NCBI RefSeq assembly: GCF_037479095.1
Contig: NZ_JBBGZW010000001.1
Span: 2,604,001 to 2,668,000, forward strand
Length of the DNA: 64,000 nt
Direction: 5' to 3'
DNA from: Pantoea nemavictus
GTDB lineage: Bacteria; Pseudomonadota; Gammaproteobacteria; Enterobacterales; Enterobacteriaceae
The position numbers and the translations under genes are program-made. The stretch's first letter is position 1; each line of letters opens with the position of its first letter. The notes beneath the pieces were generated by a model. That model was not told the DNA's origin, did not search any database, and worked only from the letters and a program-made list of their open reading frames with translations. Shown here piece by piece: positions 1,141-16,077 of the stretch.

Positions 1141-2393
1141 TTCACACTCTCCTGCGCTTTTAAGAAGAAATCACTGTTACCAAAGTTGCCTGACTTGAGG
1201 ATTACCCACTTTTCTTCATCTAATACCTGTGTCCAGGGTACACCAGGCGCGACAGCATCGCCGATCACCATGCCTTTGATATTGAGGCCCTGTGATACCG
1301 CACCCGACGTTTCACCGCCAGCGACGATAAATTTGTTGAAACCTTCCTTGCTTAAATTGTGGGCAAGTGTGGCGAAGAAGCTTTCAATCTTCTCACTGAC
1401 AAATTCTGCACCGTAGTTCTTCTGAATAATCTCGATAATCTGAGGCGGTTGCGTGGCATAGACCATCGGAGCCAACGCATCATTCTTTTGGGTCACCACC
1501 CAGCCCGTCACCGTCTGCAGGTACGTTGGTTCGTGAAGGATTTTTTCCACATCCAGTGCCAGTGAGGAGGCGCGCTGCTGATAAAAGTTCACCTGCTGGT
1601 TGGTCATGGAAGAGCAGCTGCCTGACAGGACAATGCTTGCCCCCTCTTTGCTGATAGCAAACGCAGGCTTATCAGCAGATTTATGCATCGTATCCAGTGC
1701 CGCAATGGCATAACCAATACCTGCTGCACCGGTGATAAGGACATAATCTGCGGTTTCACGCGCGACGGTTAACAGATCGTTGTTATCCAGTACGTCACAG
1801 ATAACATATTTGATCTTTTCCTCTGCCAGTTTGGCTAGGGCATCAGGAATGTCTTCTACATGATTTTTGATGGTGTCGAGATCGATGACTTCACAGCGGC
1901 CGGTGGATTGCGCCTCCATCAATTTTTTTAGTGAAGACTCTCTCATCGGTGTGACTGGATGATGTTCCATCCCGCTTTGATTCAATAACTGCCCTTTCAC
2001 AAACAGATGGCCTTGCAAAATGGTCCGTCCATTATCAGGTACTGCCGGGCAAATCAACGTGATTGGCGCATCCAGATTCTTCATCAGGGCATCGGTAACC
2101 GGACCAATATTCCCCTCTTTTGTCGAGTCAAAGGTTGAGCAATATTTGAATAGCTGACGCTTACAGCCCTGTGACTTAAGCCAGTTTGATGCAGACAATG
2201 ATTGTTCCACCGCCGTCTTGGTCAGAATCGAACGGCTTTTAAGGGCGATAACCACCGCATCGATGCCTTCCTGATCAAATGCCTCAGCAGGAACGCCATT
2301 GAACAGCACCACTTTCCAGCCCGCATTCACCATGAAACTTGCAATGTCGGTGGCACCCGTAAAGTCATCCGCGATGACGCCCAACTTAATCAT
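1137..2393 (-). CDS. otnK: DUF1537-family four-carbon acid sugar kinase (OtnK-like)
   Basis: A 418-residue protein starting MIKLGVIADDFTGATD, the hallmark N-terminus of the DUF1537 acid-sugar kinase family (OtnK/DtnK, E. coli YgbK). The C-terminal nucleotide-binding region holds VAGGETSGAVSQ. The family phosphorylates 3-oxotetronate, D-threonate or erythronate at C4. Start chosen at 2391-2393 because AGAGGAA precedes it at good spacing; a longer in-frame reading upstream lacks this support. It is the first gene of a leftward operon with the otnC-like gene and the CitMHS transporter. A 24-bp operator (2432-2455) lies 38 bases upstream of the start and a CRP-like site lies just beyond it, so GntR control with catabolite control is likely. 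Exact substrate is inferred. Confidence 0.82.
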   Translation of the reverse strand: MIKLGVIADDFTGATDIASFMVNAGWKVVLFNGVPAEAFDQEGIDAVVIALKSRSILTKTAVEQSLSASNWLKSQGCKRQLFKYCSTFDSTKEGNIGPVTDALMKNLDAPITLICPAVPDNGRTILQGHLFVKGQLLNQSGMEHHPVTPMRESSLKKLMEAQSTGRCEVIDLDTIKNHVEDIPDALAKLAEEKIKYVICDVLDNNDLLTVARETADYVLITGAAGIGYAIAALDTMHKSADKPAFAISKEGASIVLSGSCSSMTNQQVNFYQQRASSLALDVEKILHEPTYLQTVTGWVVTQKNDALAPMVYATQPPQIIEIIQKNYGAEFVSEKIESFFATLAHNLSKEGFNKFIVAGGETSGAVSQGLNIKGMVIGDAVAPGVPWTQVLDEEKWVILKSGNFGNSDFFLKAQESVK

Positions 2394-2431: not shown

Positions 2432-2455
2432 TGCTTTTATGTAAATACAAGTGCA
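2432..2455. promoter_or_regulatory. Operator copy A (24-bp inverted repeat) upstream of otnK
   Basis: TGCTTTT, ten bases, then AAGTGCA. It matches the consensus TGCATTT-N10-AAATGCA with imperfect arms. It sits 38 bases upstream of the otnK-like start codon. Probably bound by the GntR/FCD protein encoded at 14857-15744. Confidence 0.6.
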
Positions 2456-2474
2456 ATCGGGCTTGATGTTAATT

Positions 2475-2490
2475 TGTGCTTTAGATCACA
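2475..2490. promoter_or_regulatory. CRP-like site (leftward operon)
   Basis: TGTGC, six bases, TCACA: nine of ten half-site positions match the TGTGA-N6-TCACA consensus. It lies 81 bases upstream of the otnK-like start, a usual distance for an activator. Binding is inferred. Confidence 0.5.
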
Positions 2491-2639
2491 AAATAAGGGA
2501 TTATGGTTAACAAATGGGTGTGAGTGGAATCTTTGAAGCGGCTGTTACAACGGGTAATAATCCTAAAGCTCGCAGGGCTTAGCCATAACTTACTGAAAAG
2601 ACGGAGGAATGTTGTAATGTGTTTTTTTTGTATCAGAAA

Positions 2640-2655
2640 TGTGATCTCAATCACC
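2640..2655. promoter_or_regulatory. CRP-like site (rightward operon)
   Basis: TGTGA, six bases, TCACC: nine of ten half-site positions match the CRP consensus. It lies 65 bases upstream of the dehydrogenase start codon and just upstream of operator copy B. Confidence 0.5.
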
Positions 2656-2665
2656 TTGCCTTCAG

Positions 2666-2689
2666 TGCATTTATTGGTATAAAAATGCA
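2666..2689. promoter_or_regulatory. Operator copy B (24-bp inverted repeat) upstream of dehydrogenase operon
   Basis: TGCATTT, ten bases, AAATGCA: perfect 7-bp arms. Its end is 31 bases upstream of the ATG at 2721, so it probably overlaps the promoter or transcription start, as expected of a repressor site. Confidence 0.65.
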
Positions 2690-2720
2690 ATCGAAAACTG
2701 ACCAACCATCTGGAGTATTT

Positions 2721-3791
2721 ATGCGTATTTTGGTTCTGCCTTGTGACGGTATCGGCCCTGAGATCACTTCTGCTGCGGTAACTGTGCTGGAGTCACTGGA
2801 TAAAGCGTATGGCCTGAACTTTGAGTTCGACTACGAAGACGTAGGTTTTAAAAGCCTGGAGTTACACGGCACTACGCTGCGCCAGGAATCACTCGACCGT
2901 GCCAAAACGTATGACGGCATTATTCTGGGTACCCAGTCCCACGCGGATTATCCAGCACCGGAAAAAGGCGGCCGTAACGTTTCTGCTGGCTTCCGCATTG
3001 GTCTGGATCTCTATGCTAACGTCCGTCCTGCGCGCACTCGTCCTTTCCTGACGTCTAATATGAAGGAAGGCAAATCCATGGATTTGGTGATCATGCGTGA
3101 AGCGACGGAAGGGTTCTATCCAGACCGCAACATGACTCGCGGCTGGGGTGAAGTGATGCCAAGCCCGGATATGGCGCTGTCTACCCGTAAAATTACCCGT
3201 CATTGCTCTGAGCGTATTGCTCGCAAAGCCTTCGAGCTGGCGATGCAGCGTCGTAAAAAAGTGACCGCAATTCATAAAGCTAACAGCTTCCATATGACGG
3301 ATGGCCTGTTCCTTGAAGCCGTGCGTCACGTGGCAAAAGAGTTCCCTGAAGTTGAGCTGGACGATCTGTTAGTTGATGCGTCAACCGCTCACCTGGTGCG
3401 TAACCCAGAGCGTTTCGACGTACTGGTTGCCACTAACTTCTATGGTGACATCATCAGCGACCTGGCGAGTGAATTGTCAGGCAGCCTTGGCCTGGCCGGT
3501 TCAATTATGGCCAGTGATACTCATTGCTGCGCGCAGGCTCAGCATGGATCAGCTCCGGATATTCAGAATCAGGACAAGGCGAACCCGGTGTCGATGATTC
3601 TGTCGGTTGCCATGATGCTGCAATGGTACGCAGAGAAGCACAACCAGCCAAAATTCCTGAAAGCGGCGGAAGAGATCAGCCGTGCCGTTGATGAAGTGCT
3701 GGAAAATCCAGAAACCCGTACGCCGGACCTGGGTGGCAAATGTGGTACTAAAGCCTTTGCTGACAAAGTGGCTGCTTCTATTCGCGCCTGA
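2721..3791 (+). CDS. Isocitrate/isopropylmalate-type NAD(P) dehydrogenase of unknown substrate
   Basis: A 356-residue beta-decarboxylating dehydrogenase-fold protein. Features are the N-terminal LPCDGIGPEIT, LYANVRPAR near residues 99-107 (carboxylate-binding arginines), the metal-binding region around LVATNFYGDIISDLASEL and the C-terminal HGSAPDI nucleotide-binding motif. The usual VREN(T/S)EG substrate loop is replaced by MREATEGFYPDRN, so it is not ordinary leuB, icd or dmlA. Relatives oxidise malate-type 2-hydroxy acids such as tartrate, D-malate, isopropylmalate and isocitrate. Start chosen at 2721, preceded by TGGAG; the longer reading from 2619 would overlap both regulatory sites. First gene of a rightward operon running through the racemase-like, amidohydrolase and MFS genes. 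Class is secure; substrate is not. Confidence 0.82.
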   Translation: MRILVLPCDGIGPEITSAAVTVLESLDKAYGLNFEFDYEDVGFKSLELHGTTLRQESLDRAKTYDGIILGTQSHADYPAPEKGGRNVSAGFRIGLDLYANVRPARTRPFLTSNMKEGKSMDLVIMREATEGFYPDRNMTRGWGEVMPSPDMALSTRKITRHCSERIARKAFELAMQRRKKVTAIHKANSFHMTDGLFLEAVRHVAKEFPEVELDDLLVDASTAHLVRNPERFDVLVATNFYGDIISDLASELSGSLGLAGSIMASDTHCCAQAQHGSAPDIQNQDKANPVSMILSVAMMLQWYAEKHNQPKFLKAAEEISRAVDEVLENPETRTPDLGGKCGTKAFADKVAASIRA

Positions 3792-3847
3792 TTAAACGTC
3801 ATGAGGTTGCCGCACTTCAGCGGCAGCCTGCTTTCATGGAGCCGAAG

Positions 3848-4504
3848 ATGAATCAACGTATTGTTTTAATCCACGCGACTCCACTGGCGGTTGAGCCGAT
3901 AAACCAGGCTTTTGCCGATCAGTGGCCAGAGGCTGAAATCAGTAACTTGCTGGATGACGCGTTAAGTGTGGATCGTCGTAAGGTGACGATTTTGACCGAT
4001 CGTCTGTTTCAGCGGATCGATTCACTGGTGAACTATGCTGCCAACATTGATGCTGGTGCAGTGTTGTTTACCTGCTCTGCATTTGGTGAAGCGATTGACG
4101 CCAGCGCAGCGAAAAATACCATGCCGGTGCTTAAGCCAAACGAAGCCATGTTTGAAGCGGCTTTAGCTAAGGGTAAACATATCGTCATGCTGGCAACGTT
4201 TGCTCCCGCCGTCGCCGGGATGGAAGCGGAATTTCATGAACTGGTACGTAAAGGTTATCGTGACGCCACGTTAACCAGCGTTCTGGTTGAAGGGGCGCGT
4301 GATGCTCTCGAGCAAGGTGATGCCGAGCGCCACAACCAGCTCATTGTTCAGGCTGCACGTGAACATACTGAGGCTGATGCCATCCTTCTTGCGCACTTCT
4401 CGATGGCCATTGCCTGGGAGCAGGCTCAGTCAGCAGTGAACTGTCCGGTACTGAGCAGTCCGCATGCAGCCGTTTCAAAACTGAAAACATTAATGGCTCA
4501 TTAA
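3848..4504 (+). CDS. Asp/Glu racemase-superfamily protein lacking the second catalytic cysteine
   Basis: A 218-residue protein of the aspartate/glutamate racemase superfamily. The N-terminal catalytic cysteine is present (VLFTCSAFG, Cys76). The position where racemases carry the second cysteine (normally GC-T/S) reads LLAHFSMA near residues 180-187, so two-base racemisation is unlikely. Superfamily members with one cysteine include decarboxylases and isomerases acting on malonate- or maleate-like acids. The start at 3848 is preferred over the ATG at 3836 because GGAG at 3838-3841 gives an ideal spacing. Its neighbours (dehydrogenase before, amidohydrolase after) suggest an isomerase or decarboxylase step on a carboxylic-acid intermediate. 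Reaction unknown. Confidence 0.7.
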   Translation: MNQRIVLIHATPLAVEPINQAFADQWPEAEISNLLDDALSVDRRKVTILTDRLFQRIDSLVNYAANIDAGAVLFTCSAFGEAIDASAAKNTMPVLKPNEAMFEAALAKGKHIVMLATFAPAVAGMEAEFHELVRKGYRDATLTSVLVEGARDALEQGDAERHNQLIVQAAREHTEADAILLAHFSMAIAWEQAQSAVNCPVLSSPHAAVSKLKTLMAH

Positions 4505-4539
4505 TTTAGTCAGTCGATTTCTTTTAAAAAGGCATCAAC

Positions 4540-5415
4540 GTGGAAAGCCGAGATATATTGGCGGATGTGAAATATAGCCATATTTCACACTCGCCTGAGA
4601 TCGTATTGCCTGAACATAGCTGTGACTGTCATCATCATATTTTTGACAGGCGTTATCCCTATGCTGCGGATGATACGCGTAATTTACCAAACGCGACCGT
4701 CAACGATTACAACCAGTTTAAAAAATGGTTGGGACACTCTCGTCATATTCTGGTGCAGCCCTCTTCTTATGGAACGGATAATCGTTGTCTGACAGATGCA
4801 TTACGTGCTTTTGGCACTCATGCACGTGGTGAAGCCGTGGTGGACGACACTGTTAGTGATGCCGAAATGGATACGCTGCAGCAAGCTGGCGTAACGGGGG
4901 TTCGATTCAATCTTGGTGCGGGCAATGCAACGACACCTGAAATGCTGCTTCCCGTAGCGCAACGCGTGGCGGAACGTGGCTGGCATGTGCAGGTCCACGC
5001 CACTGCGGATCAATTGTGGCAGTTGCGATCAACGCTACTTCAGATACCGGGAAATCTGGTCATCGACCACTACTTTCGTTTACCGCAGCCTGAGCCGATG
5101 GCCCATCCAGTTTGGAAGCTGGCTTGGGAGCTGATTGAAAAGGGTCAATGTTGGGTAAAGCTCTCCGCGCTTTATCATCAGTCACAATGTGATGATGTGT
5201 CTGATATGGCAGCTCTGGTTACCCGCTTTCTTCACGATGCAACTGAACGTGTTTTATGGGGAAGTGACTGGCCACATCCCAATTTAATAAGTGCCAATAA
5301 AAATATGCCAGATGATGCATTGATACTATCGAAAATATACCACTGGGCGCATAACGATCAGGTTAGACACAAATTATTTGTGGAAAACCCGGCTGAACTT
5401 TACCGATTTAATTAA
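4540..5415 (+). CDS. LigI-like amidohydrolase (lactone hydrolase/isomerase family)
   Basis: A 291-residue TIM-barrel amidohydrolase. The N-terminal metal/substrate motif is CDCHHHIFD near residues 28-36, HVQVHAT and LVIDHYFR lie mid-barrel, and RVLWGSDWPHP is the terminal strand motif with the catalytic Asp. This pattern is typical of the family of 2-pyrone-4,6-dicarboxylate lactonase (LigI) and D-galactarolactone isomerase, which act on lactones of di- and tricarboxylic acids and often need no metal. Translation starts at a GTG (4540-4542) with AAGG upstream. It is the third gene of the dehydrogenase operon, so a lactone intermediate or lactone substrate is plausible. Exact reaction unknown. 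Confidence 0.75.
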   Translation: MESRDILADVKYSHISHSPEIVLPEHSCDCHHHIFDRRYPYAADDTRNLPNATVNDYNQFKKWLGHSRHILVQPSSYGTDNRCLTDALRAFGTHARGEAVVDDTVSDAEMDTLQQAGVTGVRFNLGAGNATTPEMLLPVAQRVAERGWHVQVHATADQLWQLRSTLLQIPGNLVIDHYFRLPQPEPMAHPVWKLAWELIEKGQCWVKLSALYHQSQCDDVSDMAALVTRFLHDATERVLWGSDWPHPNLISANKNMPDDALILSKIYHWAHNDQVRHKLFVENPAELYRFN

Positions 5416-5441
5416 TCGTATGCCAGACAAGGCCGAATATT

Positions 5442-6827
5442 ATGATTACTCTGAACTCCACTGCTAAAAAGAACAGACCTACGCATTATCGTTATATGAT
5501 TTTGCTGATGGTATTTCTCAGTATTGCTTTAAATCATGGTGATAGAGCGACCTTCTCAATTGCCGGTACGGATATGGTGAAATCTGCCGGGCTGGATATT
5601 GTGGCGCTCGGTTATCTGATCTCAACCTTCACCTGGGCCTATGTTCTGGGGCAATATCCGGGTGGTTGGTTACTGGATCGTTACGGCTCAAAAAAAGTGT
5701 TGGTAACCGGGGTTTTCACCTGGTCACTGTTCGTCTTTTTGGTGGGTTTCAGCACCTCTTTTGACAATATTTGGGTGACACGCGTATTGATGTTTGGCTT
5801 CATCTTTATGATGGGGTTGATTGAAGCACCAACGCTACCCGCTAACTCTCGATTCCTTGCGGCATGGTTCCCGGCGAAAGAGCGTGGTAAAGCTTCCGGA
5901 TTCACTACTGCAGCACAGTATTTTGCATTAGTGGTCTTCTTACCGTTGATGGGCTGGTTCTCCTATTCGTTTGGTTGGGAGTCGGTGTTCTGGTTTATGG
6001 GCGCAGTCGGTATTCTGGTCTCGCTGTTGATGACGCGGGTACTCACCGATACGCCTAAAGTTCACCCGTTGGTCAACGATGCTGAGCTTGAATATATCCA
6101 GTCCGGCGGCGGTCTGACCAACATGAAAGCCAGTAAAAAAGGCGATAACGTCGGCAAAGGATATACCCGTAAATTACTGACCAGCCGATTGGCGCTGGGT
6201 GTCTATATGGGGCAGTTCTTCTTTACGGTGCTTTCCTACTTTTTCCTGACGTGGTTCCCGGTTTATCTGGTGCACGATCGTGGTATGACCATTCTCAAGG
6301 CGGGATTTATCGCGTCACTGCCGGCGTTATGTGGATGTGCCGGCGCGTTGCTGGGCGGCGTGTTATCCGATTACATGCTGGCGCGTGGTTTCAGTCTGTC
6401 AGCCGCACGTAAAACACCGATCGTTATCGGCATGCTGTTAGCCGTGAGTATGGTTATTTGCAATTACGTCGATTCCGCATGGGTTGTGGTGGCTATTATG
6501 TCGCTGGCCTTCTTTGGCAAGGGATTTGGTGCGATGGGATGGTGCGTAGTCTCAGACTTCTCACCGAAAGAGGCGGTCGGCCTGAGTGGCGGATTGTTCA
6601 ATATGATTGGCAATATTTCGGGAATCTTTACGCCAATTATTATTGCCTACATCATAAAAGATACCGGTTCATTCAATGGTGCTTTGATTTTTGTCGGCGT
6701 CTGCGCTTTCCTCAATCTGTGCTGTTATCTGTTTGTGGCTGGAAAAATTCAACGTCTGAATTTTGAAACGCCGAAACAGGATCACGATGATGACTTTTCT
6801 GGAGAGCCGCATGTCAGCCACCGATAA
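5442..6827 (+). CDS. MFS carrier of the ACS family (hexuronate/galactonate/glucarate type)
   Basis: A 461-residue 12-TM major facilitator. NHGDRATFSIAGTDM after TM1 and LGQYPGGWLLDRYGSKKV in TM2/loop 2-3 closely follow the anion:cation symporter subfamily (GudP, GarP, DgoT), which import sugar acids with protons. The downstream gene begins inside its last codons (ATG at 6811, stop 6825-6827), indicating a polycistronic message. Together with the acid-sugar enzymes it suggests that a polyhydroxy acid is the imported nutrient. The block encodes three further carriers (the two CitMHS proteins and the DHA2 carrier), so more than one compound may be handled. Family is secure; substrate inferred. 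Confidence 0.85.
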   Translation: MITLNSTAKKNRPTHYRYMILLMVFLSIALNHGDRATFSIAGTDMVKSAGLDIVALGYLISTFTWAYVLGQYPGGWLLDRYGSKKVLVTGVFTWSLFVFLVGFSTSFDNIWVTRVLMFGFIFMMGLIEAPTLPANSRFLAAWFPAKERGKASGFTTAAQYFALVVFLPLMGWFSYSFGWESVFWFMGAVGILVSLLMTRVLTDTPKVHPLVNDAELEYIQSGGGLTNMKASKKGDNVGKGYTRKLLTSRLALGVYMGQFFFTVLSYFFLTWFPVYLVHDRGMTILKAGFIASLPALCGCAGALLGGVLSDYMLARGFSLSAARKTPIVIGMLLAVSMVICNYVDSAWVVVAIMSLAFFGKGFGAMGWCVVSDFSPKEAVGLSGGLFNMIGNISGIFTPIIIAYIIKDTGSFNGALIFVGVCAFLNLCCYLFVAGKIQRLNFETPKQDHDDDFSGEPHVSHR

Positions 6828-7497
6828 CGCAACCCCACTACGTTTTGCTATCAATTTAGGTAACGCCGTATTGGCCAAAACGCTGCCCGATGGGCAGCCG
6901 GGCGGGATTACTGTGGAGATCGCCCAAAAAATTGCGGCTGAACAGGGAAGAGTCGCGCAATTTATTATGTATCCCACAGCAGGCAAGGTGGTCGATGATG
7001 CCACTCACGATCGCTGGGACGTCGCCTTTTTGGCGATAGACCCGAAGCGTGAAGAGGTGCTGCGATTTACGCAGTCTTATATCACTATCGAAGGTACCGT
7101 GATGGTGAGAGAGAGCAGCAACTGGCAAAGCGTGACCGAGATGGATAAACCTGATGTGGTCATCAATGTCGGTAAAGGAGCAGCCTACGATCTGTTTCTG
7201 AGCCGCGAATTAAAACATGCTGCGCTCAATCGACTCGCTTCATCACAGGCCGCGATCGATGCGTTTCTCGATGGAGAAGGCGACATGGCAGCAGGAATCC
7301 GTCAACCTTTAGAAAGTGCAGTCAGTAACAATCGCGGTTTTCGCGTTCTGCCCGATAATTTCGGTCAGATTTTCCAGGCTATTTGTTTGCCGCATGCGCA
7401 GGACCAGCTTTATGGTGAAATTAGTCATTACCTGAATAAATGGCAGGAAAATGGCGCTATCAGCGAGATTATTAATCGGAATCTTGCCGAGTCTTAA
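6811..7497 (+). CDS. Solute-binding-protein-like (SBP family 3) protein without signal peptide
   Basis: A 228-residue protein resembling periplasmic amino-acid-type solute-binding proteins: LRFAINLGNAVLA at the start, GGITVEIAQKIA, WDVAFLAIDPKREEVLRFTQSY and DAFLDGEGDMAAG in order. The preferred start (6811, preceded by GGAG at good spacing) gives MSATDNATPLRF with no signal peptide. An upstream in-frame start (6763, MKRRNRITMMTF...) also lacks a hydrophobic core. No ABC permease or ATPase is nearby. It may be a cytoplasmic ligand-binding protein or a repurposed enzyme of the SBP fold. Overlaps the MFS gene by 17 bases and is followed by a strong hairpin, so it is likely the end of this operon. 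Confidence 0.7.
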   Translation: MSATDNATPLRFAINLGNAVLAKTLPDGQPGGITVEIAQKIAAEQGRVAQFIMYPTAGKVVDDATHDRWDVAFLAIDPKREEVLRFTQSYITIEGTVMVRESSNWQSVTEMDKPDVVINVGKGAAYDLFLSRELKHAALNRLASSQAAIDAFLDGEGDMAAGIRQPLESAVSNNRGFRVLPDNFGQIFQAICLPHAQDQLYGEISHYLNKWQENGAISEIINRNLAES

Positions 7498-7501
7498 ACT
7501 T

Positions 7502-7534
7502 AATGCAGCGTTCTCATTTGGAGAACGCTGCATT
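7502..7534 (+). terminator. Strong hairpin after the SBP-like gene
   Basis: A perfect 14-bp stem (AATGCAGCGTTCTC with its complement, loop of five) directly follows the stop codon at 7497. There is no clear T run behind it, so it may be a 3' mRNA-stabilising hairpin or a weak terminator rather than a classical one. Confidence 0.5.
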
Positions 7535-7620
7535 GGCTAATGTTCAATTTTCATTCATTAATGGGCATGAGACGTTATCCAGCGACGAACATAACAAGAT
7601 TGCTGTGACGGAAGGTTTTT

Positions 7621-10269
7621 ATGACATCGCCCTTAACGCTGGAACGCTCGCCGCTGGTTATTCATAACCGCCTGTATCATTTTATTGACCTCACCCAGAT
7701 CGTCCCGCTGGAGCAACTGCAGACATTGCCTTACAGCATTCGCATTCTGCTAGAGAACGTTGCGCGATGCTCACCGCAAACGCTGCCTAAATTTCTCAAC
7801 TATCTGTCTGCAAAGTCCTCCCCTGGTGAGGTTGAGTTTTATCCCGACCGCCTCATGTTCCATGACACCACCTGTTTACCGGCTTTGGCTGACTTTGCTG
7901 CCATGCGCGATCTTACTGCTGAGTTAGGTGGCGATCCGCGCGCTATCAATCCACACATTCCTGCTGTGCTAACCATCGATCATTCGGTCATTGTTGAAAG
8001 TTACGCGAATGCCGATGCGCTGGAAGATAACCTCAAGTTTGATTTTCGCCGTAACGCTGAACGCTATCGCTTCATTCGCTGGGCAGAAAAAAGCCTGGAT
8101 AACTTCCGCGTCATTCCACCCGGCACCGGCATTATTCATTTAATGAACCTTGAAACCATTGCTGAAGTGGTCACGGTAGATGAGCGTGAAGCCATACCGT
8201 TGCTGCACGCCGATTGCATGATTGCAACCGACAGCCATACGCCGATGATAAATGCACTTGGTGTGTTGGGGTGGGGCGTAGGTGGTCTGGAAGGTCAGGC
8301 CGCATTGGTTGGCGAGCCAGTCACGTTACGCTTCCCGGACGTGGTCGGAATTTGTGTTTCCGGTGAACTGCCGCCGGATGTTAGCGACAGCGATCTGGCT
8401 CTGCACATCACGCGCCTGTTGCGTGAAAGCGGTGTGGTCGGCAAATTTGTAGAGTTCACCGGTCCTGCACTCCACAGCATGCCGCTCGAATCGCGCGCCA
8501 CCATTGCCAATATGGCCCCGGAATACGGTGCCACCGTGGTGTTCTTCCCGTTTGATCAGCGCAGCGCAGAGTACGTCAACCTGACCGGGCGCAGTGAAGA
8601 GAAACAGGAAATTATTCGCAGTTATATGCAACATCAGCACCTTTGGCGTCATCCGGAGGATCGTCAGCCTGACTTCACACAACGCATTGAGCTGGATTTA
8701 AGTAGCATCGAACCCAGCGTGGCGGGGCCTTATAATCCTCATCAACAAATTCCGCTCAGTGATTCGCCGAAAAGTTTTATGGAGACATTGAAAGCCGGCG
8801 AGCGCGCTATGAAATGGCAGCATGATGATTACCCACAACCGATTCAACAAGGCGCCGTGGCTATCGCGGCCATAACCAGCTGCACCACAACCGCCAACCC
8901 CTGGCTGGTAATTCAGGCGGCATTGTTTGCCAGGAATGCGGCAAAGTACGGACTGCAACCCAAGCCTTGGGTTAAAACCTCCTTTTCACCCGGATCTCGG
9001 GCGGTTACCGATTATCTTGGAGAATCAGGCCTGCTTAGCGAATTGGAAAAGGTGGGGTTCGATGTGGCAGGTTATGGCTGTATGACCTGCATTGGCAGTT
9101 CGGGCGCATTACAACCGGCCATGGAAAGTCTGGTGAGTGATGGCCTTCAGGCCGTGTGTGTGCTTTCCGGTAACCGTAACTTTCCCCGTCGCGTTAATCC
9201 CAGCCTCGGTCATGGTTATCTCACCTCGCCAGCATTGGTGATTGCCTGGGCTATTGCCGGAAATATGCAGCATGACATGTTGAACGACCCGCTTGGCTAC
9301 GATGAGCATCTACAGCCGGTTTTCATGCGCGACTTAATGCCAGCGCGTGAAGAAGTTGAACGCTGGGTAACAAGAGTGATGAAGCGTGAACATTACATCC
9401 AGCGTCGCGATCTTATCTGGCAGGGAACCCCACACTGGCAGCAAATTGAAGCTCCGGGTAGCGTGCATTATCCATGGGAATCGACCTCAACCTATCTGCG
9501 TCGGCCGGGCTATCTGGAACGTTTACCTCGAGACCCTGCCGAACCGCTGTCGCTCAATAACGCCCGACCTTTCCTCTGGTTTGGCGATGACGTCACCACC
9601 GATCATATTTCGCCTGCAGGTGCGATTTCCGCAGGCAGCCTTGCCGGTCAATGGTTGCTGGAACATCATGAAGATCCGCAGGACCTGAATCTCTACTCTA
9701 CGCGACGCAGTAATCATGAGGTGATGGTACGCGGTGCTTTTACGAATAAAGCGCTATCCAACCGTTTGTTACCGGCGGATAAGCGCGGAGGTGGCGGTTA
9801 TGCCTGGGATGCGTCTCATCAGCAAATTCTTCCGGCTTTTGAGGCAGCGCAAACATGGCATGCAACAGATACGCCGCTGGTAGTGCTGGCGGGCGAGCGC
9901 TATGGCGCGGGATCGAGTCGTGACTGGGCTGCTAAAGCGCAGGCACTGATGGGGGTTAAAGCCGTCATTGCTAATAGTTTCGAACGTATCCACCGCACGA
10001 ATTTGATCGGAATGGGCATTCTTCCGCTGCATTTCATTGCCGATGAAGCGGACAGATTACCTGAGATGGATGGAAGCGAGGTCCTGGATATTACAGGCCT
10101 GGAAATGATCGCGCCGGGTACGACGCCGCTGATGCTCTTCATCCGCCGTGGAGGCAGGCAGATTGCTGCACTGAATCTTGAGGCAGTGATAGACTCCCAG
10201 CAAGAACTACGCTATCTGCGCTATGGCGGTATTTTGCCCTTTGTTATTCAGCAAACACTTAAAGAGTAG
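7621..10269 (+). CDS. Aconitase-family hydro-lyase (AcnA-like paralogue)
   Basis: An 882-residue protein of AcnA architecture and size. The three [4Fe-4S] ligands are present in ITSCTTTANP and YGCMTCIGSSG, and substrate/catalytic motifs include ATDSHTPM, GDDVTTDHISPAG, RRSNHEVMVRG and YGAGSSRDWAAK. It should therefore be an active hydratase/isomerase of a tricarboxylic acid. It diverges from housekeeping AcnA at conserved places (TTTAN instead of TNTSN; AKAQALMG instead of AKGPRLLG). Its position, followed 8 bases later by a LysR-type gene and within the catabolic block, suggests a dedicated substrate such as a citrate analogue or aconitate isomer. It could also be an ordinary second aconitase. 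Family certain, role inferred. Confidence 0.85.
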   Translation: MTSPLTLERSPLVIHNRLYHFIDLTQIVPLEQLQTLPYSIRILLENVARCSPQTLPKFLNYLSAKSSPGEVEFYPDRLMFHDTTCLPALADFAAMRDLTAELGGDPRAINPHIPAVLTIDHSVIVESYANADALEDNLKFDFRRNAERYRFIRWAEKSLDNFRVIPPGTGIIHLMNLETIAEVVTVDEREAIPLLHADCMIATDSHTPMINALGVLGWGVGGLEGQAALVGEPVTLRFPDVVGICVSGELPPDVSDSDLALHITRLLRESGVVGKFVEFTGPALHSMPLESRATIANMAPEYGATVVFFPFDQRSAEYVNLTGRSEEKQEIIRSYMQHQHLWRHPEDRQPDFTQRIELDLSSIEPSVAGPYNPHQQIPLSDSPKSFMETLKAGERAMKWQHDDYPQPIQQGAVAIAAITSCTTTANPWLVIQAALFARNAAKYGLQPKPWVKTSFSPGSRAVTDYLGESGLLSELEKVGFDVAGYGCMTCIGSSGALQPAMESLVSDGLQAVCVLSGNRNFPRRVNPSLGHGYLTSPALVIAWAIAGNMQHDMLNDPLGYDEHLQPVFMRDLMPAREEVERWVTRVMKREHYIQRRDLIWQGTPHWQQIEAPGSVHYPWESTSTYLRRPGYLERLPRDPAEPLSLNNARPFLWFGDDVTTDHISPAGAISAGSLAGQWLLEHHEDPQDLNLYSTRRSNHEVMVRGAFTNKALSNRLLPADKRGGGGYAWDASHQQILPAFEAAQTWHATDTPLVVLAGERYGAGSSRDWAAKAQALMGVKAVIANSFERIHRTNLIGMGILPLHFIADEADRLPEMDGSEVLDITGLEMIAPGTTPLMLFIRRGGRQIAALNLEAVIDSQQELRYLRYGGILPFVIQQTLKE

Positions 10270-10277
10270 GGAAGTTC

Positions 10278-11231
10278 ATGCGCTACGACCTGGTCTCACT
10301 TTCGCTGTTTGTCGCTGTGGCTGAAGAGCAGAATCTTACGCGTGCCGCACGCCGTAAGCATCTGGCCGTCTCAGCCGTGAGTAAGCGCATAACAGAACTA
10401 GAACAGCAAATTGGCACGCCACTGATGCTACGCTTGCCGCGCGGCATCGAGTTGACGCCTGCGGGGCACTCGCTGCTGTTTCACGCGCGCCAGGTGTTCC
10501 GCAATCTCGACCAAATGGAAGAGGAGCTCAGTGATTACGTGGCTGGCGTACGAGGCCACATTCGCATTTTTACGATCTCTGCGGCGTTGATGCATTATTT
10601 GCCGCGTGCCATTAGTCAGTTCCTAACTCATTACCCGCAGACAGATATCGATATTGAAGAACACACCGGCATTGGCGTCGTGCAGGGCTTGCTGCAGGGG
10701 GACGCGGATGTCGGTTTCTTTTCCAGTTGGACACCTGCTTCCGGCATTGAGGTCTGGCCATGGCAGCAAGACCAGTTGTCCGTTTTGGTGTGGCAGGGGC
10801 ATCCGTTGGCGGAGCGCGCGACCTTGCAATTAGTGGATTGCATCGATGAGAAAATGATTGGGCCACATCGGGAAAGCGCAGTGAGCCACATTCTGGAGCG
10901 TGAAGCGAGAAAGCTGGGTACAACGCTGAATATAGGCTTACGGGTCAGCAGTTTCGTCTCTATGGCCGAACTGGTTGCGCAACAGTTGGGAATAGCCATC
11001 TTGCCAGTTAATGAAATCGCTCAGGTGGCTAATCATGATGCTGTGCGCTGTATTCCCCTCGTCGAGCCATGGGCGAAACGTGAATTGTATGTTGGCGTGA
11101 AGGGATATGCCCTATCTTCACCCTCGGTGAAAGCGTTTATCGAAAATGTCACGCCATTGAAACGTGCAACGGGTGCTGAAGAGGGGGCGCTGCTTGAGGC
11201 CAGTCTCATTAATGCTGACCTCAAGCGCTGA
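10278..11231 (+). CDS. LysR-type transcriptional regulator
   Basis: A 317-residue LysR-family protein. The N-terminal winged helix (residues about 1-60, YDLVSLSLFVAVAEEQNLTRAARR with TPAGHSLL after it) is followed by a periplasmic-binding-fold effector domain (about 90-300). Eight bases separate it from the aconitase-like gene, with GGGAAG as ribosome-binding site, so the two are co-transcribed. Unlike most LysR genes it lies downstream of, not divergent from, its likely target. It probably regulates the aconitase-like gene or other genes of the block in response to a carboxylic acid. Convergent with the lactonase gene, whose stop lies one base away. Confidence 0.85.
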   Translation: MRYDLVSLSLFVAVAEEQNLTRAARRKHLAVSAVSKRITELEQQIGTPLMLRLPRGIELTPAGHSLLFHARQVFRNLDQMEEELSDYVAGVRGHIRIFTISAALMHYLPRAISQFLTHYPQTDIDIEEHTGIGVVQGLLQGDADVGFFSSWTPASGIEVWPWQQDQLSVLVWQGHPLAERATLQLVDCIDEKMIGPHRESAVSHILEREARKLGTTLNIGLRVSSFVSMAELVAQQLGIAILPVNEIAQVANHDAVRCIPLVEPWAKRELYVGVKGYALSSPSVKAFIENVTPLKRATGAEEGALLEASLINADLKR

Positions 11232-11232
11232 G

Positions 11233-12339
11233 TTAATCGGAAAATACAATGCAGGTAGGGCTGGCAGTGAATACCTCTTTACCTGTGTCTTTAAGCATAC
11301 CCGAGTCCTGATCAACGCTGAAAATGCGAATAGAATCTGAGTCCTCGTTAGCGCTGTAAAAATAGAGCCCATCTGCAGAGAGCGTTGTAAAACGCGGCGT
11401 CTTACCACCGCAAAACACCCATCCCACAGGCTTTAAGCAGCCATCATCAGGATTTATGCGCATAACCGCAATACTGTTATGACCACGATTGGCGGCATAT
11501 AAGAAGCGCCCAGACGGATGCACTTCGATTTCACTGGCGTCGTTACGTGTTTCAAATCCTTCCGGTAGGCTGCTCAGCGTTTGCTTGAGCGCAATGTTTC
11601 CCGTCTCTTGTTCAAAATCGTAAACGGTAATCGTATTCCCGAGCTCACTCAGGCCATAAAGCCACTGGCCCTGTGGATGGAAATCAACATGACGCGGCCA
11701 GCTCCCAGACGGCAACAGCACTTCATCATTGAGTAGTGATTGTCCATCTCGCCAGTGATAAATACGCACCATATCAATGCCGTTTCCGGCCTGTCTGCCC
11801 TGGATGGGCAGAGCGTAGTAATCGCTATCTGGTGCAAAAATAATTTCATGCGGACGTGACAAGCTGGCCGCAGCGCCATCCTCATCAGCGTGGCCTTCCA
11901 CCATCGCCAGGTGGTGAGGAGGCAGTAGCGCGTCATCATCAGCGAACGCTAATGCTGCTACGTTGCCGCCTTCATGGTTAGCAATCAGCAGATGGCGGCC
12001 ATCAGGTGAGAGAGCAGCATGCACCGGGTTATTGCGCCGCAGTGGATCAAGATCGGGATGTGGATTCTGTGGGCCCGTTGTTTGTTCAGATAACAAAGTC
12101 AGCATGCCAGAGATAGGATCACGCGCAAAAATAGCTACCTGATTGCCATCCCCATGCAGCACGTACAGCCGATTTCTTTTTTCATCCAGTGTGAGCCAGG
12201 ACGGATTTTCCTGAACAGAGGTAACACGTTGTACGTGATGCCAGTTCCCTGACTCATCAATGCGAAATACTTCAATTCCTTTTCCACGTGCGCCACGCCA
12301 CTCGGACGTACGGCAACCCACATAGGCAAACTTATTCAT
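11233..12339 (-). CDS. Beta-propeller lactonase (6-phosphogluconolactonase/YbhE family)
   Basis: A 368-residue seven-bladed beta-propeller of the lactonase family. Repeating blades each carry motifs of the type SPDGRHLLIANH, FHPQGQWLYGLSE, VHPSGRFLYAANRGHNSI and LSADGLYFYSANE. Family members hydrolyse sugar lactones (Pgl) or cyclise carboxymuconate. The first residues (MNKFAYVGCRTSEW) show no signal peptide, so it is cytoplasmic. Operator copy C begins 22 bases upstream of the start codon, tying it to the same regulon. It is transcribed divergently from the SDR. A role in opening an aldonolactone or similar lactone fits the acid-sugar context; the substrate is unknown. Confidence 0.8.
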   Translation of the reverse strand: MNKFAYVGCRTSEWRGARGKGIEVFRIDESGNWHHVQRVTSVQENPSWLTLDEKRNRLYVLHGDGNQVAIFARDPISGMLTLLSEQTTGPQNPHPDLDPLRRNNPVHAALSPDGRHLLIANHEGGNVAALAFADDDALLPPHHLAMVEGHADEDGAAASLSRPHEIIFAPDSDYYALPIQGRQAGNGIDMVRIYHWRDGQSLLNDEVLLPSGSWPRHVDFHPQGQWLYGLSELGNTITVYDFEQETGNIALKQTLSSLPEGFETRNDASEIEVHPSGRFLYAANRGHNSIAVMRINPDDGCLKPVGWVFCGGKTPRFTTLSADGLYFYSANEDSDSIRIFSVDQDSGMLKDTGKEVFTASPTCIVFSD

Positions 12340-12361
12340 TTACAACCCCGCCATACCAATA

Positions 12362-12385
12362 TGCATTTATTTAAACACAAGTGCA
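12362..12385. promoter_or_regulatory. Operator copy C upstream of the lactonase gene
   Basis: TGCATTT, ten bases, AAGTGCA. One arm is perfect and the other has one mismatch. It begins 22 bases before the lactonase start codon (leftward gene). Confidence 0.62.
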
Positions 12386-12395
12386 TATATTGACT

Positions 12396-12411
12396 TGTGA
12401 CTGATATCACG
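12396..12411. promoter_or_regulatory. CRP-like site
   Basis: TGTGA, six bases, TCACG: nine of ten half-site bases match the CRP consensus. It lies between the two operators of the region, 56 bases from the lactonase start. Confidence 0.55.
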
Positions 12412-12512
12412 CTTTTGTGGTTACCAATCTTTGAAACTAACTAATAAGGGGTTTTTACGTTATGCGTCGGTGTTTTTAGGCTGCTTAAAACTGCACTGCA
12501 ATTTTATGCTAT

Positions 12513-12536
12513 TGCATTTGAGTGGGTTTAAATGCA
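12513..12536. promoter_or_regulatory. Operator copy D upstream of the SDR gene
   Basis: TGCATTT, ten bases, AAATGCA with perfect arms. It ends 118 bases upstream of the chosen SDR start at 12655, further than in the other copies. This leaves room for a longer 5' leader. Confidence 0.63.
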
Positions 12537-12654
12537 GAAAATTGACGATCGTGGTCACAATTTCAACGGCTCGCGATTGCTAAAAAAAACCGCAGATAGC
12601 TTACTGTTAACAAGTCGTGAAAACTGTTACATAAATGCATCTGGGAGAAGGGTT

Positions 12655-13398
12655 ATGACCCAACGTATTGCGTATGTTACATCCGGGATGGGAAGCCTCG
12701 GAACCGCTATTTGCCGTCGACTGGCGAAGGATGGTTTTAAAGTGATTGCAGGATGCGGCCCCAATTCTCAACGTAAAACCGCCTGGCTTGATGACAATAA
12801 AAAGATGGGATTTGATTTTATCGCATCAGAAGGAAACGTGGCTGATTGGGAATCAACGGTTAAAGCGTTTGCCAAAATAAAAGCTGAAATCGGTGAGATA
12901 GACGTGCTGGTTAATAATGCCGGTACGGCACGGAATGTATTATTTCGTGATATGCAGCCACAGGAGTGGCAGGCCGTTATTAACACCAATATGAACTCAT
13001 TATTCAACGTCACTAAACAAGTCGTGGATGGCATGATGTCGCGTGGATGGGGACGTATTATCAATATTTCTTCAGTCAACGCGCAAATTGGTCAAACAGG
13101 TCAGGTTAACTACTCTACGGCAAAATCTGCCGTGCGGGGTTTTACTCGCGCCCTGGCACGTGAAGTTTCGGCACGCGGAGTAACAGTTAACACGGTATCG
13201 CCGGGCTATCTGGCTACGTCAAAACTGAAAACAGTCACGCCGGTGCAGGTTATTGATAAGATTGTTCAGGAAATTCCAGTGCGTCGTCTGGGCTCTCCGC
13301 AGGAAATCGCCTCTATATGCTCATGGCTGGCATCTGACGAATCAGGATTTGCCACGGGTGCTGATTTCTCTGTTAACGGCGGCCTGCATATGGGCTAA
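12655..13398 (+). CDS. Short-chain dehydrogenase/reductase (PhaB/FabG-like)
   Basis: A 247-residue classical SDR. It has the cofactor motif TSGMGSLGTAI near residues 8-18, NNAG near 86-89, catalytic Ser (NISSVNAQ), the YSTAK pair near residues 150-154 and VNTVSPGYLAT. The family oxidises or reduces hydroxyl/keto groups with NAD(P). The start at 12655 is preferred over the upstream reading from 12532 because of the strong GGGAGAAGGG ahead of it and because it gives the normal length of about 246 residues. It precedes the CitMHS transporter gene by 82 bases and both follow operator D, so they are probably co-transcribed. It resembles acetoacetyl-CoA reductase, but here a sugar-acid dehydrogenase role is more likely. 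Confidence 0.82.
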   Translation: MTQRIAYVTSGMGSLGTAICRRLAKDGFKVIAGCGPNSQRKTAWLDDNKKMGFDFIASEGNVADWESTVKAFAKIKAEIGEIDVLVNNAGTARNVLFRDMQPQEWQAVINTNMNSLFNVTKQVVDGMMSRGWGRIINISSVNAQIGQTGQVNYSTAKSAVRGFTRALAREVSARGVTVNTVSPGYLATSKLKTVTPVQVIDKIVQEIPVRRLGSPQEIASICSWLASDESGFATGADFSVNGGLHMG

Positions 13399-13446
13399 TA
13401 AATTAACAGAACGTCCTGCTCAAAATTTCCGTCAAATTAATTATCG

Positions 13447-13468
13447 CGCATATTAGAAATAATATGCG
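13447..13468 (+). repeat. Perfect hairpin with GAAA loop just before the transporter start
   Basis: CGCATATTA, loop GAAA, TAATATGCG: a perfect 9-bp stem with a GNRA-type tetraloop, ending two bases before the GGAGG ribosome-binding site of the CitMHS gene. It could be an intercistronic processing or stability element or modulate translation. Confidence 0.45.
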
Positions 13469-13480
13469 TTGGAGGCTCTT

Positions 13481-14818
13481 ATGCTCTCGCTTCTGGGATA
13501 TGGCATGATTGTGGTCTTTATGATCCTAATCATGACCAAAAAACTTTCTGCACTCGTCGCACTGATCATTATTCCAATAATATTTGCTCTGATTGCCGGA
13601 TTCGGCGGAGAGATGGGCGAGATGATGATTGAGGGGCTTAAAAAAGTCGCTCCGACTGCCATCATGGTTATTTTTGCCATTCTCTACTTCAGCACCATGT
13701 TTGATACCGGTTTATTTGATCCGATTATTCGCTTCTTTTTACGGATTATTAATGGTGACCCGGTTAAAGCGGTTATGTGCAGCGCGATTCTGGCGGCGAT
13801 GGTGTCACTTGATGGTGATGGATCAACGACCTATATGATCTGCGTAACGGCAATGCTGCCATTGTTTAAACGTATTCGTCTGGATCCACTGGCGCTGACT
13901 TGCGTAGTCTTCCTCTCCGGAAGTATTACTAACTTGCTGCCATGGGGCGGTCCACTGGCTCGCGTTGCGGCATCCTTGAAAGTTGAATCCAGCGATCTGT
14001 TTATTCCGCTGATTCCAACTATGGTTTGCGGTTTTGTCGGAGTATTGGTGCTGTCCTGGTATATCGGTATTCGTGAACGCCGTCGTTTAGGCAAGCTAAG
14101 TATCAATACCAATGGTTATGGATCAGTCACTGAAGACGATGCAGAAAGCTATCTGCCGGCAATCAATGAAGTCAATGAAGAGCTGCGTCGTCCAAAACTG
14201 TTCTGGCTTAACGCGGGTCTGACCTTGTTACTGATGGGATCGCTGGTGATGGAGTTGCTGCCACTATCGGTGCTGTTCATGGTGGCATTTGCTCTGGCGT
14301 TGCTGATCAACTATCCGCACATTGATGCCCAGCGTCAGCGTATTGCAGCGCATGCACCTGCTGCGCTGAACCAGACATCTATCTTCCTGGCTGCGGGTAT
14401 TTTCGCCGGTATTCTATCGGGTACTGGAATGGTCACCGCAATGTCGGCATCTCTGCTGGATGTGTTACCCGATTCATGGGGCCCTTATCTGGCACCGATT
14501 ACGGCACTGATCAGCTTGCCTGGCACCTTCTTTATGTCGAATGATGCCTTCTATTATGGTGTACTGCCGGTTCTGGCAGAAGCAGCGAAAGTGTATGGCA
14601 TTGATCCGGTCGAAATTGGTCGTGCATCATTGGTTGGGCAGCCAATCCACTTACTGAGTCCGTTAGTGGCATCAACCTATCTGTTGGTGGGATTAGCCGG
14701 AGTTGAATTCAGCGACCATCAGAAATACACCTTCAAATGGGCTTTCCTGCTCTGCATGATCTTCCTGGCATCGGGTTTGCTATTGGGTCTTTATCCCCTC
14801 TACTCGCCTGGCGGTTAA
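13481..14818 (+). CDS. CitMHS-family carboxylate:H+ symporter
   Basis: A 445-residue inner-membrane transporter with about 11-12 hydrophobic segments. SLDGDGSTTYMICVTAMLPL, SGSITNLLPWGGPLARV and SLPGTFFMSNDAFYYGVLPV are typical of the citrate-Mg2+:H+/citrate-Ca2+:H+ symporter (CitMHS) family. The ATG at 13481 follows GGAGG at ideal spacing; a TTG twelve bases earlier is less likely. It lies downstream of the SDR, probably in the same operon, and is a paralogue of the partial transporter at the left edge. It likely imports a citrate-like, possibly metal-complexed, acid. Followed by a bidirectional terminator shared with the GntR gene. Confidence 0.85.
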   Translation: MLSLLGYGMIVVFMILIMTKKLSALVALIIIPIIFALIAGFGGEMGEMMIEGLKKVAPTAIMVIFAILYFSTMFDTGLFDPIIRFFLRIINGDPVKAVMCSAILAAMVSLDGDGSTTYMICVTAMLPLFKRIRLDPLALTCVVFLSGSITNLLPWGGPLARVAASLKVESSDLFIPLIPTMVCGFVGVLVLSWYIGIRERRRLGKLSINTNGYGSVTEDDAESYLPAINEVNEELRRPKLFWLNAGLTLLLMGSLVMELLPLSVLFMVAFALALLINYPHIDAQRQRIAAHAPAALNQTSIFLAAGIFAGILSGTGMVTAMSASLLDVLPDSWGPYLAPITALISLPGTFFMSNDAFYYGVLPVLAEAAKVYGIDPVEIGRASLVGQPIHLLSPLVASTYLLVGLAGVEFSDHQKYTFKWAFLLCMIFLASGLLLGLYPLYSPGG

Positions 14819-14830
14819 AGGCGGTGATGA

Positions 14831-14857
14831 AAAAATGGCCCATTTGGGCCATTTTTT
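14831..14857. terminator. Bidirectional intrinsic terminator
   Basis: ATGGCCC, loop ATTT, GGGCCAT, flanked by an A run on one side and a T run on the other. It lies between the convergent CitMHS and GntR genes and can serve both. Confidence 0.85.
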
Positions 14858-15744
14858 TATACTCCGATACTACGTTGTTTTTTGTTATCTAGCGCGACAG
14901 CGAGGTGCTGCTTCATCATGTATGATGCTTCGATCAGCTGCCCTGCCTCAATTAATGACAGCAAGTGCATATGATCTTTAACTTCAGCGTAGTAGCGGCT
15001 GCGGTCATCCATAATGCGGTAATCCATTAAACGGCGCATGCGGTTGACGTTGCGCAGTGATATCTCAAAAAACGGGTTGTTTGAAAAACTGATGACAGTC
15101 TCATGAAAGCGGTAACCCGCTAACTGGAGCTGAGTAGGCGATAAACGCTGAATGCCACTCTCTAGAAGCATCTCCAGCTCGCGCTTAATCTCATCAATTT
15201 TGCTCTGTGGGGCTTTGAAGGTGGATTCCAAAATTGCCATTGGTTCAATAACCATGCGGAAGCTGAAAATATGCTCAAGCGCGGCTTTGGTCTTGGCAAC
15301 GGGCAGAAAACGCCAGCCATAACCTTGTTTACGTTCAACCCATCCCTCACTGATACCGCGCGCCAGAATGGTCGTGAGCTGAGTCTTCGAAAGGTTATAA
15401 CGCTTGAGTAAATAAAGTTCGTTAACTTCAGATTCGATTTTGTCCTGCAGCCAGTCTTCCGCTAATTGATAGTATTCAGGAAGATCGTTATCCACTTCAC
15501 TTTCATGTGAGCTCTGAGTCTGAGGCGCATAATCCTGCTTAACAAAGAAACCACGGTTGTGCTGCTGCTGTAGAATGCCTTTGTGTTCAAGGTAAACCAG
15601 GGCCTCACGCACGGGGGAACGTGAAACATCAAATGATTCTGCCAACTTAGGTACACTTAGGTGTGCACCCGGCGACAATCCTCCACTGTCGATCATCGTG
15701 ATTATTTTTTGCGAAAGCCTTTCCGTAAGAGCGCTTATTTTCAT
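14857..15744 (-). CDS. GntR/FCD-family regulator with an apparent second winged helix
   Basis: A 295-residue regulator. Residues about 1-70 form a GntR winged helix (ending KLAESFDVSRSPVREALVYL then GILQQQHNRGFFV). Residues about 88-148 look like a second winged helix (LYLLKRYNLSKTQLTTILARG, EGWVERKQGYGWRF). Residues about 155-290 are an all-helical FCD effector domain with candidate metal-binding histidines at about 214, 259/261 and 280. Most FCD regulators are 220-250 residues with one winged helix. ATG at 15742-15744 chosen; the TTG at 15787-15789 would add a poorly conserved tail. Operator E lies 51 bases upstream, so it is probably autoregulated and the best candidate for binding all six operators. 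Effector unknown. Confidence 0.82.
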   Translation of the reverse strand: MKISALTERLSQKIITMIDSGGLSPGAHLSVPKLAESFDVSRSPVREALVYLEHKGILQQQHNRGFFVKQDYAPQTQSSHESEVDNDLPEYYQLAEDWLQDKIESEVNELYLLKRYNLSKTQLTTILARGISEGWVERKQGYGWRFLPVAKTKAALEHIFSFRMVIEPMAILESTFKAPQSKIDEIKRELEMLLESGIQRLSPTQLQLAGYRFHETVISFSNNPFFEISLRNVNRMRRLMDYRIMDDRSRYYAEVKDHMHLLSLIEAGQLIEASYMMKQHLAVALDNKKQRSIGV

Positions 15745-15795
15745 GAAGAAAGCCCTAAAAAATGCAGGAATAAGTACAAAATTTAACAATATTAT

Positions 15796-15819
15796 TGCAT
15801 TTTAATTGTATGAAATGCA
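15796..15819. promoter_or_regulatory. Operator copy E upstream of the GntR gene
   Basis: TGCATTT, ten bases, AAATGCA with perfect arms, extended by one further matching base on each side (T and A). It lies 51 bases upstream of the regulator start, suggesting autoregulation. Confidence 0.66.
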
Positions 15820-16053
15820 ATTATAAAATGCAGTTTTAAGCTCGGTTAACCACATGTTTATATTGATGATTTTCTATCATTTTATATTTTATCAATCCAC
15901 GCGGCTTAAAGGCCACCCGCCAAAAGCTGCATGATTAATTGATTCCTCTCATTTTCACGCCTTCATCTGCAAAAGCTCCCTTCTACACCTTCAAATTCGT
16001 TAAATCGTAGTTAAACCACTTTTACAATTACATACATAAAAAAACTACTAATC

Positions 16054-16077
16054 TGCATTTGAGTAAACAAAAATGCA
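16054..16077. promoter_or_regulatory. Operator copy F upstream of the dehydrogenase-complex operon
   Basis: TGCATTT, ten bases, AAATGCA with perfect arms, ending 57 bases upstream of the ATG at 16135. Confidence 0.66.

Follow-up and report, generated by a model that had tools for sequence, protein, structure and literature searches.

Six copies of a 24-bp palindrome, TGCATTT-N10-AAATGCA, were found in a gene block of Pantoea nemavictus, and probably control the digestion of an unusual organic acid by that block. The block lies in a 64,000-nt stretch of contig NZ_JBBGZW010000001.1 (positions 2,604,001 to 2,668,000; hereafter the window) of a 5.19 Mb genome. Genome comparisons strongly support reading the six palindromes as operators of one regulon under the GntR-family protein that is encoded centrally in the block and would control its own gene as well as the surrounding divergent operons. 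The explanation that we favor, with a probability of about 0.8 for the whole of it, is that this protein is of GntR-FCD type, that its dimer presents four winged helices to the N10 operators, that it blocks CRP-activated promoters, and that an acid is its ligand.

Four copies in the window match the pattern exactly, one has a single mismatch and one has two (Table 1), confirming the six positions and the four sets of perfect arms of the preliminary description, as well as its range of distances to the start codons (38 bases for otnK, 31 for the isocitrate/isopropylmalate-type dehydrogenase (IDH), 22 for the lactonase, 118 for SDR, 51 for gntR and 57 for gdh3). With up to 3 mismatches allowed, the window holds 9 matches, not above chance (shuffle mean 6.9, with 27 of 100 shuffles reaching 9), so the motif signal resides in the near-exact sites. 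A genome-wide motif scan had been suggested; run by pattern with up to 2 mismatches, it gave 27 sites versus 13 for the reversed control. All four exact sites fall in the catabolic block, as do five of the six sites with at most one mismatch, the sole outsider (C1:3636461) being inside an ABC-transporter ATPase gene. The remaining 2-mismatch matches of the window, at 16564 and 31871, are both within reading frames, and the earlier remark that the backbone of the window has no full copy holds. Position weights were built from sites picked by their T, G and TTT positions; the T at position 0 (69% of Enterobacterales, 91% of Rhizobiales and 66% of remaining sites) and the predominance of A or T at position -1 were not forced by this choice, and extend the operator to about WT-TGCATTT-N10-AAATGCA-AW. 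Additional AAATGCA half-sites lie beside the gntR operator (15760-15766 and 15826-15832) and beside the SDR operator (12633-12639).

The preliminary description held that the pattern shows shared control directly. By itself it did not, and the support came from genome comparisons. Co-occurrence of operator and regulator was tested both pattern-first and protein-first over 198 genomes of the family. Searching by pattern yielded 15 exact sites in 8 genomes (reversed control, 1); at least three occur only in G000, G325 and G479, with at most one in each of the other 195. Searching by protein yielded 18 genomes with a GntR match at E≤1e-20, and the only matches of at least 63% identity are in the same three genomes (G000, 100%; G479, 80%; G325, 63%), all of which have at least three exact operators; the G325 match covers residues 49-230 with two in-frame stops, from a genome rated 49% complete. 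None of the other 15 GntR-matching genomes (25-30% identity) has an exact site. None of the 18 is a genome with just one exact site; of the five such sites, four are inside open frames longer than 600 bases. A search of 295 genomes of the order for IDH lacking the regulator matched only 2, the window's own and G150, both GntR-bearing. No near match to 14857-16077 was found in E. coli genomes.

For a broader comparison, the window GntR protein (P0001) was aligned with 18 of the 120 relatives listed out of 547 (alignment A1, 19 sequences). Of the 169 stretches confirmed by the alignment-based scan, the best 80 were kept as loci, 10 enterobacterial and 70 other. Nine of the 10 enterobacterial loci have one operator 61-76 bp upstream of gntR and two between the lactonase and SDR genes, and all nine of their genomes carry the otnK and IDH operators in place as well. 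Because they are kept in place in nine relatives, operators O1-O5 are old in the enterobacterial group. The tenth locus (L031) looks decayed, its GntR match spanning only residues 44-295 and its CitMHS match only 53 residues, with none of these operators. Two additional IDH paralogues in the nine genomes are without an operator (L133 and L134, from two of the nine, are a second paralogue at 75-76%). A chance origin of the repeats, or a different function such as terminator or structural repeat, can draw on the window count at 3 mismatches, but is already contradicted by exact sites that are restricted to the block, conserved in position and tied to gntR; we give it next to no credence.

The sixth operator, O6 at 16054 before gdh3, stands apart. 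The enterobacterial loci yielded no counterpart. Two sets of 15 GMC matches, one from five of the nine genomes (45-57% identity, two matches being pieces of one gene) and the other from further genomes of the family (56-58%), likewise had none within 1.5 kb, and these searches returned no GMC relative above 58% identity. Ancestral membership of this site in the regulon is therefore unsupported, and we read O6 as a putative later recruitment of the dehydrogenase complex into the regulon.

The 80 loci were assigned by hand to Enterobacterales (10), Rhizobiales (28), Rhodobacteraceae (21), Pseudomonas (12) and others (9). Matches to the relaxed pattern TGnnTTT-N10-AAAnnCA, part of which lie inside genes, outnumber those to its reversed control in each group: 35 versus 3, 90 versus 2, 33 versus 4, 16 versus 5 and 15 versus 1, respectively. 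A relaxed site within 400 bp upstream of gntR was found at 9/10 enterobacterial, 16/28 rhizobial, 12/21 Rhodobacteraceae and 2/9 other loci, with none among the 80 for the reversed control. We also scanned intergenic DNA for perfect 7-bp inverted arms at gaps of 0-18, and a gap of 10 has the highest count in Enterobacterales plus window (30, against 24 for the runner-up) and in Rhizobiales (45 against 35). The G150 locus (L106), with a GntR protein 30% and an IDH 77-78% identical to those of the window, has a perfect TGTATTT-N10-AAATACA and, 182 bp away, an imperfect second copy. Looser arms at the same gap recur in Rhizobiales and Rhodobacteraceae, and weakly in Pseudomonas. Several results weigh against the favored explanation: the 12 Pseudomonas loci all lack a site in the 400 bp upstream of gntR, the gap scan peaks at values other than 10 in Pseudomonas and the mixed group and gives a tie of gaps 10 and 8 in Rhodobacteraceae, and its background is high, nearly all gaps exceeding shuffles. 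Limited to 300 bp upstream of gntR the scan is weak, gap 10 being one of several that stand out. By eye, apparent AAACACA and TGTGTTT arms about 22-23 bp apart were noticed upstream of gntR at L020 and L021, other-clade relatives with two PF00392 stretches.

Gapped palindromes are possible as LysR-type sites. Another factor, such as the LysR regulator of the block, might then read the palindrome, and a relative of it is indeed present at 9/10 enterobacterial and 9/12 Pseudomonas loci. However, in stretches of up to 10 kb on each side, a LysR match turned up at just 2 of the 58 loci of the other groups, at 25-26% identity, yet the motif is strongest in the rhizobial part of these loci. As the motif persists in alphaproteobacterial stretches with no detected LysR relative, or with only such a distant one, we reject LysR as the operator reader and rate any reader other than GntR as very improbable. 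The single GntR-controlled regulon of the preliminary description is supported by the family co-occurrence, the nine relatives, the loci with no or only a distant LysR relative and the operator-free IDH paralogues, and at the level of sequence it is real, except that its sixth site was not found in relatives.

Three of the operators are accompanied by CRP-like sites (consensus TGTGA-N6-TCACA, up to 2 mismatches allowed) at distances that are the same in all relatives scanned (Table 1); the six bases between the CRP half-sites vary, while the distance from CRP site to operator stays fixed. In the window, no CRP-like site was found within 100 bp of the gntR and gdh3 operators, and the SDR operator has only a 2-mismatch site 99 bp away; at L027, a perfect CRP-like site is 46 bp from the gntR operator. 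CRP usually acts from position -41.5 or -61.5. Either position would place the operator over the core promoter, which makes repression the most likely outcome, and at the spacings of 30 and 39 bp the bound regulator would occupy the core promoter and block CRP-activated transcription at three promoters. Against this, sigma-70 promoter predictions were at chance level. Most likely the regulator represses CRP-activated promoters and senses an organic acid, with release most likely brought about by a metal-bound organic acid or acid sugar that would sit in the FCD pocket. Neither the CRP-like sites nor the second winged helix of the regulator had been reported in the preliminary description.

The structure model of the GntR protein has winged helix 1 at residues 5-68, a low-confidence linker at 76-87, winged helix 2 at 89-146 and the FCD domain at 153-289; the protein is accordingly predicted to carry two winged helices before FCD. 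Its membership in the GntR superfamily and its C-terminal FCD domain are secure by profile (PF00392, 73.3 bits, cut-off 27; PF07729, 49.3 bits, cut-off 24.3), each matching 19/19 sequences of alignment A1, in all of which H214, H258 and H280 are invariant, forming a putative three-histidine metal site with the spacing of Ps5454. Two PF00392 stretches are detected at E≤1 in the window protein and in 7/8 relatives scanned, and the second helix and wing (KQGYGWR) belong to the best-conserved parts of the chain. The model departs from the single winged helix per chain usual in the FCD subfamily, and the operator from its typical GT/AC boxes 2-3 nt apart, although neither trait strictly defines the subfamily. 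With two predicted winged helices per chain, the dimer may use all four on the long operator, and such a four-headed dimer would account both for an operator longer than FadR-type sites and for the retention of the 10-bp gap.

Certain results stand against the second head or its link to the operator. The second winged helix has no Pfam match of its own above cut-off, a Pseudomonas relative (L084) has a single PF00392 stretch, and comparing the profiles of the two heads gives a weak match (39 columns in register, P 8e-4; FCD control, 1.5e-2). At four other-clade loci (L102-L105; GntR 24-30% identical, two PF00392 stretches) no such operator was found near gntR, which leaves unsupported the rule that two heads always mean N10. 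Two ordinary GntR-FCD dimers might instead bind adjoining short sites as a tetramer, the second winged helix being structural or serving dimerization. The FCD regulator Atu1419 is described as a tetramer with two palindromes 190 bp apart (PMC7797058), and the additional half-sites beside the gntR operator would suit this arrangement, but the 24-bp unit has one two-fold symmetry, a variable center and no internal GT/AC core, and the high conservation of KQGYGWR also argues against it. We consider the tetramer unlikely.

A further proposal would add to the four-headed dimer, not replace it: the paired operators of each divergent region may be joined by a higher oligomer that loops the DNA, each pair forming one complex switch. 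Within pairs the distance hardly varies (140-152 bp and 224-236 bp), the two outliers being off by about one helical turn, and the phases of 11 distances are clustered (R 0.65, random P 0.008); Atu1419 is reported to make such loops (PMC7797058). The phase test was, however, post hoc and on related loci, and the seven Rhodobacteraceae pairs alone give R 0.54, so that looping is a tentative addition, with the odds somewhat against it.

The genes of the block are listed in Table 1. Among the 70 non-enterobacterial loci, the fetched stretch contains IDH in 62, otnK in 57, the racemase family in 55, otnC in 52 and the aconitase family in 43. The block resembles the OtnK/OtnC pathway for four-carbon acid sugars in that its kinase and decarboxylase exceed the NCBIfam equivalog cut-offs, and differs by adding the IDH-type dehydrogenase, racemase-family, aconitase-family, lactonase and CitMHS proteins. 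The G150 locus differs in turn, with the tricarboxylate transporter TctCBA between IDH and otnK (L106:12621-15699) where the window has CitMHS, which points to a polycarboxylate substrate. A rhizobial locus (L036:12080-16232) has an ABC transporter (solute-binding protein, permease and ATPase) between IDH and racemase. The titles listed by a literature search indicated no substrate specific to this gene set.

Table 1. Operators, CRP-like sites and genes of the catabolic block (window coordinates).
Feature	Position	Strand	Remarks
Operator O1 (otnK side)	2432..2455		2 mismatches; kept in 9/9 relatives
Operator O2 (IDH operon)	2666..2689		exact; kept in 9/9 relatives
Operator O3 (lactonase)	12362..12385		1 mismatch; kept in 9/10 enterobacterial loci
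Operator O4 (SDR-CitMHS)	12513..12536		exact; kept in 9/10 enterobacterial loci
Operator O5 (gntR, putative autoregulation)	15796..15819		exact; kept in 9/10 enterobacterial loci
Operator O6 (gdh3-GMC-cytochrome)	16054..16077		exact; no counterpart detected in relatives
CRP-like site TGTGCTTTAGATCACA	2475..2490		center 39 bp from O1 center; same distance in 9/9 relatives
CRP-like site TGTGATCTCAATCACC	2640..2655		center 30 bp upstream of O2 center; same in 9/9 relatives
CRP-like site TGTGACTGATATCACG	12396..12411		center 30 bp from O3 center; same in 9/9 loci scanned
otnC, 3-oxo-tetronate 4-phosphate decarboxylase family	502..1140	-	NF043034, 301.5 bits (cut-off 250)
otnK, 3-oxo-tetronate kinase family	1137..2393	-	NF043035, 522.3 bits (cut-off 350)
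Isocitrate/isopropylmalate-type dehydrogenase (IDH)	2721..3791	+	below every NCBIfam cut-off
Asp/Glu/hydantoin racemase family protein	3836..4504	+	
Amidohydrolase 2 family	4540..5415	+	
MFS transporter, D-galactonate type nearest	5442..6827	+	382.5 bits, below cut-off 395
SBP_bac_3 protein	6763..7497	+	uncertain start
AcnA-type aconitase family	7621..10269	+	
LysR-type regulator	10278..11231	+	final gene of presumed IDH operon
PF10282 lactonase	11233..12339	-	
SDR dehydrogenase	12655..13398	+	
CitMHS citrate-type transporter	13469..14818	+	uncertain start
GntR regulator	14857..15744	-	295 aa
Gluconate-2-dehydrogenase-type complex: subunit 3 (gdh3), GMC subunit, cytochrome c	16135..19886	+	
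MFS transporter	19918..21321	+	downstream of dehydrogenase complex

The GntR family is large, and most of its operators share one compact palindromic pattern; FadR-type sites are typically TKGT/ACMA, in which GT and AC lie 2-3 nt from each other and the center is conserved (PMC4494728). If the reading above is true, an FCD member with two heads and a long operator of rigid gap would account for a class of sites that models of compact patterns miss. The conserved operator offers a handle for defining the regulon, and hence the pathway, across several bacterial groups, and the fixed 30-bp distance between CRP site and operator makes the repression model directly testable. Among the titles listed from the open-access literature, subscription papers, preprints and RegPrecise not being covered, we found no earlier description of a two-headed GntR-FCD protein, and the passages covered of PMC5882156 have nothing on two heads in GntR proteins. 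A more general proposal is of an unrecognized GntR subfamily with two winged helices plus FCD, whose dimer would place four DNA-reading heads on an operator of 26-28 bp with a strict 10-bp gap, governing a polycarboxylate or acid-sugar pathway common to enterobacteria, rhizobia, Rhodobacteraceae and Pseudomonas; we hold the chances of this to be about even. The parts that appear to be new are a regulator predicted to be two-headed, its long gapped operator shared between bacterial classes, the constant CRP geometry and a sixth operator for which relatives showed no counterpart.

Several known systems share features with this one. Members of the FadR/FCD subfamily (DgoR, LldR, PdhR, TM0439 and Ps5454) likewise combine a GntR winged helix with FCD and have divergent operons, often two sites, and carboxylic-acid ligands, and the three FCD histidines of the window protein share the spacing described for Ps5454 (PMC7674646); they differ from the window system with its arms 10 bp apart around a variable center and its predicted second winged helix before FCD. 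Atu1419 (VanR, FCD) is a metal-binding FCD repressor with two operators per promoter region and DNA looping, but its own operator is the 10-bp palindrome ATGTATACAT (PMC7797058), and its structure aligns with part 88-295 of our model, which excludes winged helix 1. A parallel in operator design is BusR, a GntR-type regulator with a bipartite site at fixed distance, the 22-bp separation being read by a coiled-coil 'molecular ruler' (PMC8517857). BusR is a coiled-coil tetramer with RCK_C domains, whereas Pfam matches in the window protein show FCD and no RCK_C, and it would owe its extra reach to having a second winged helix within one chain.

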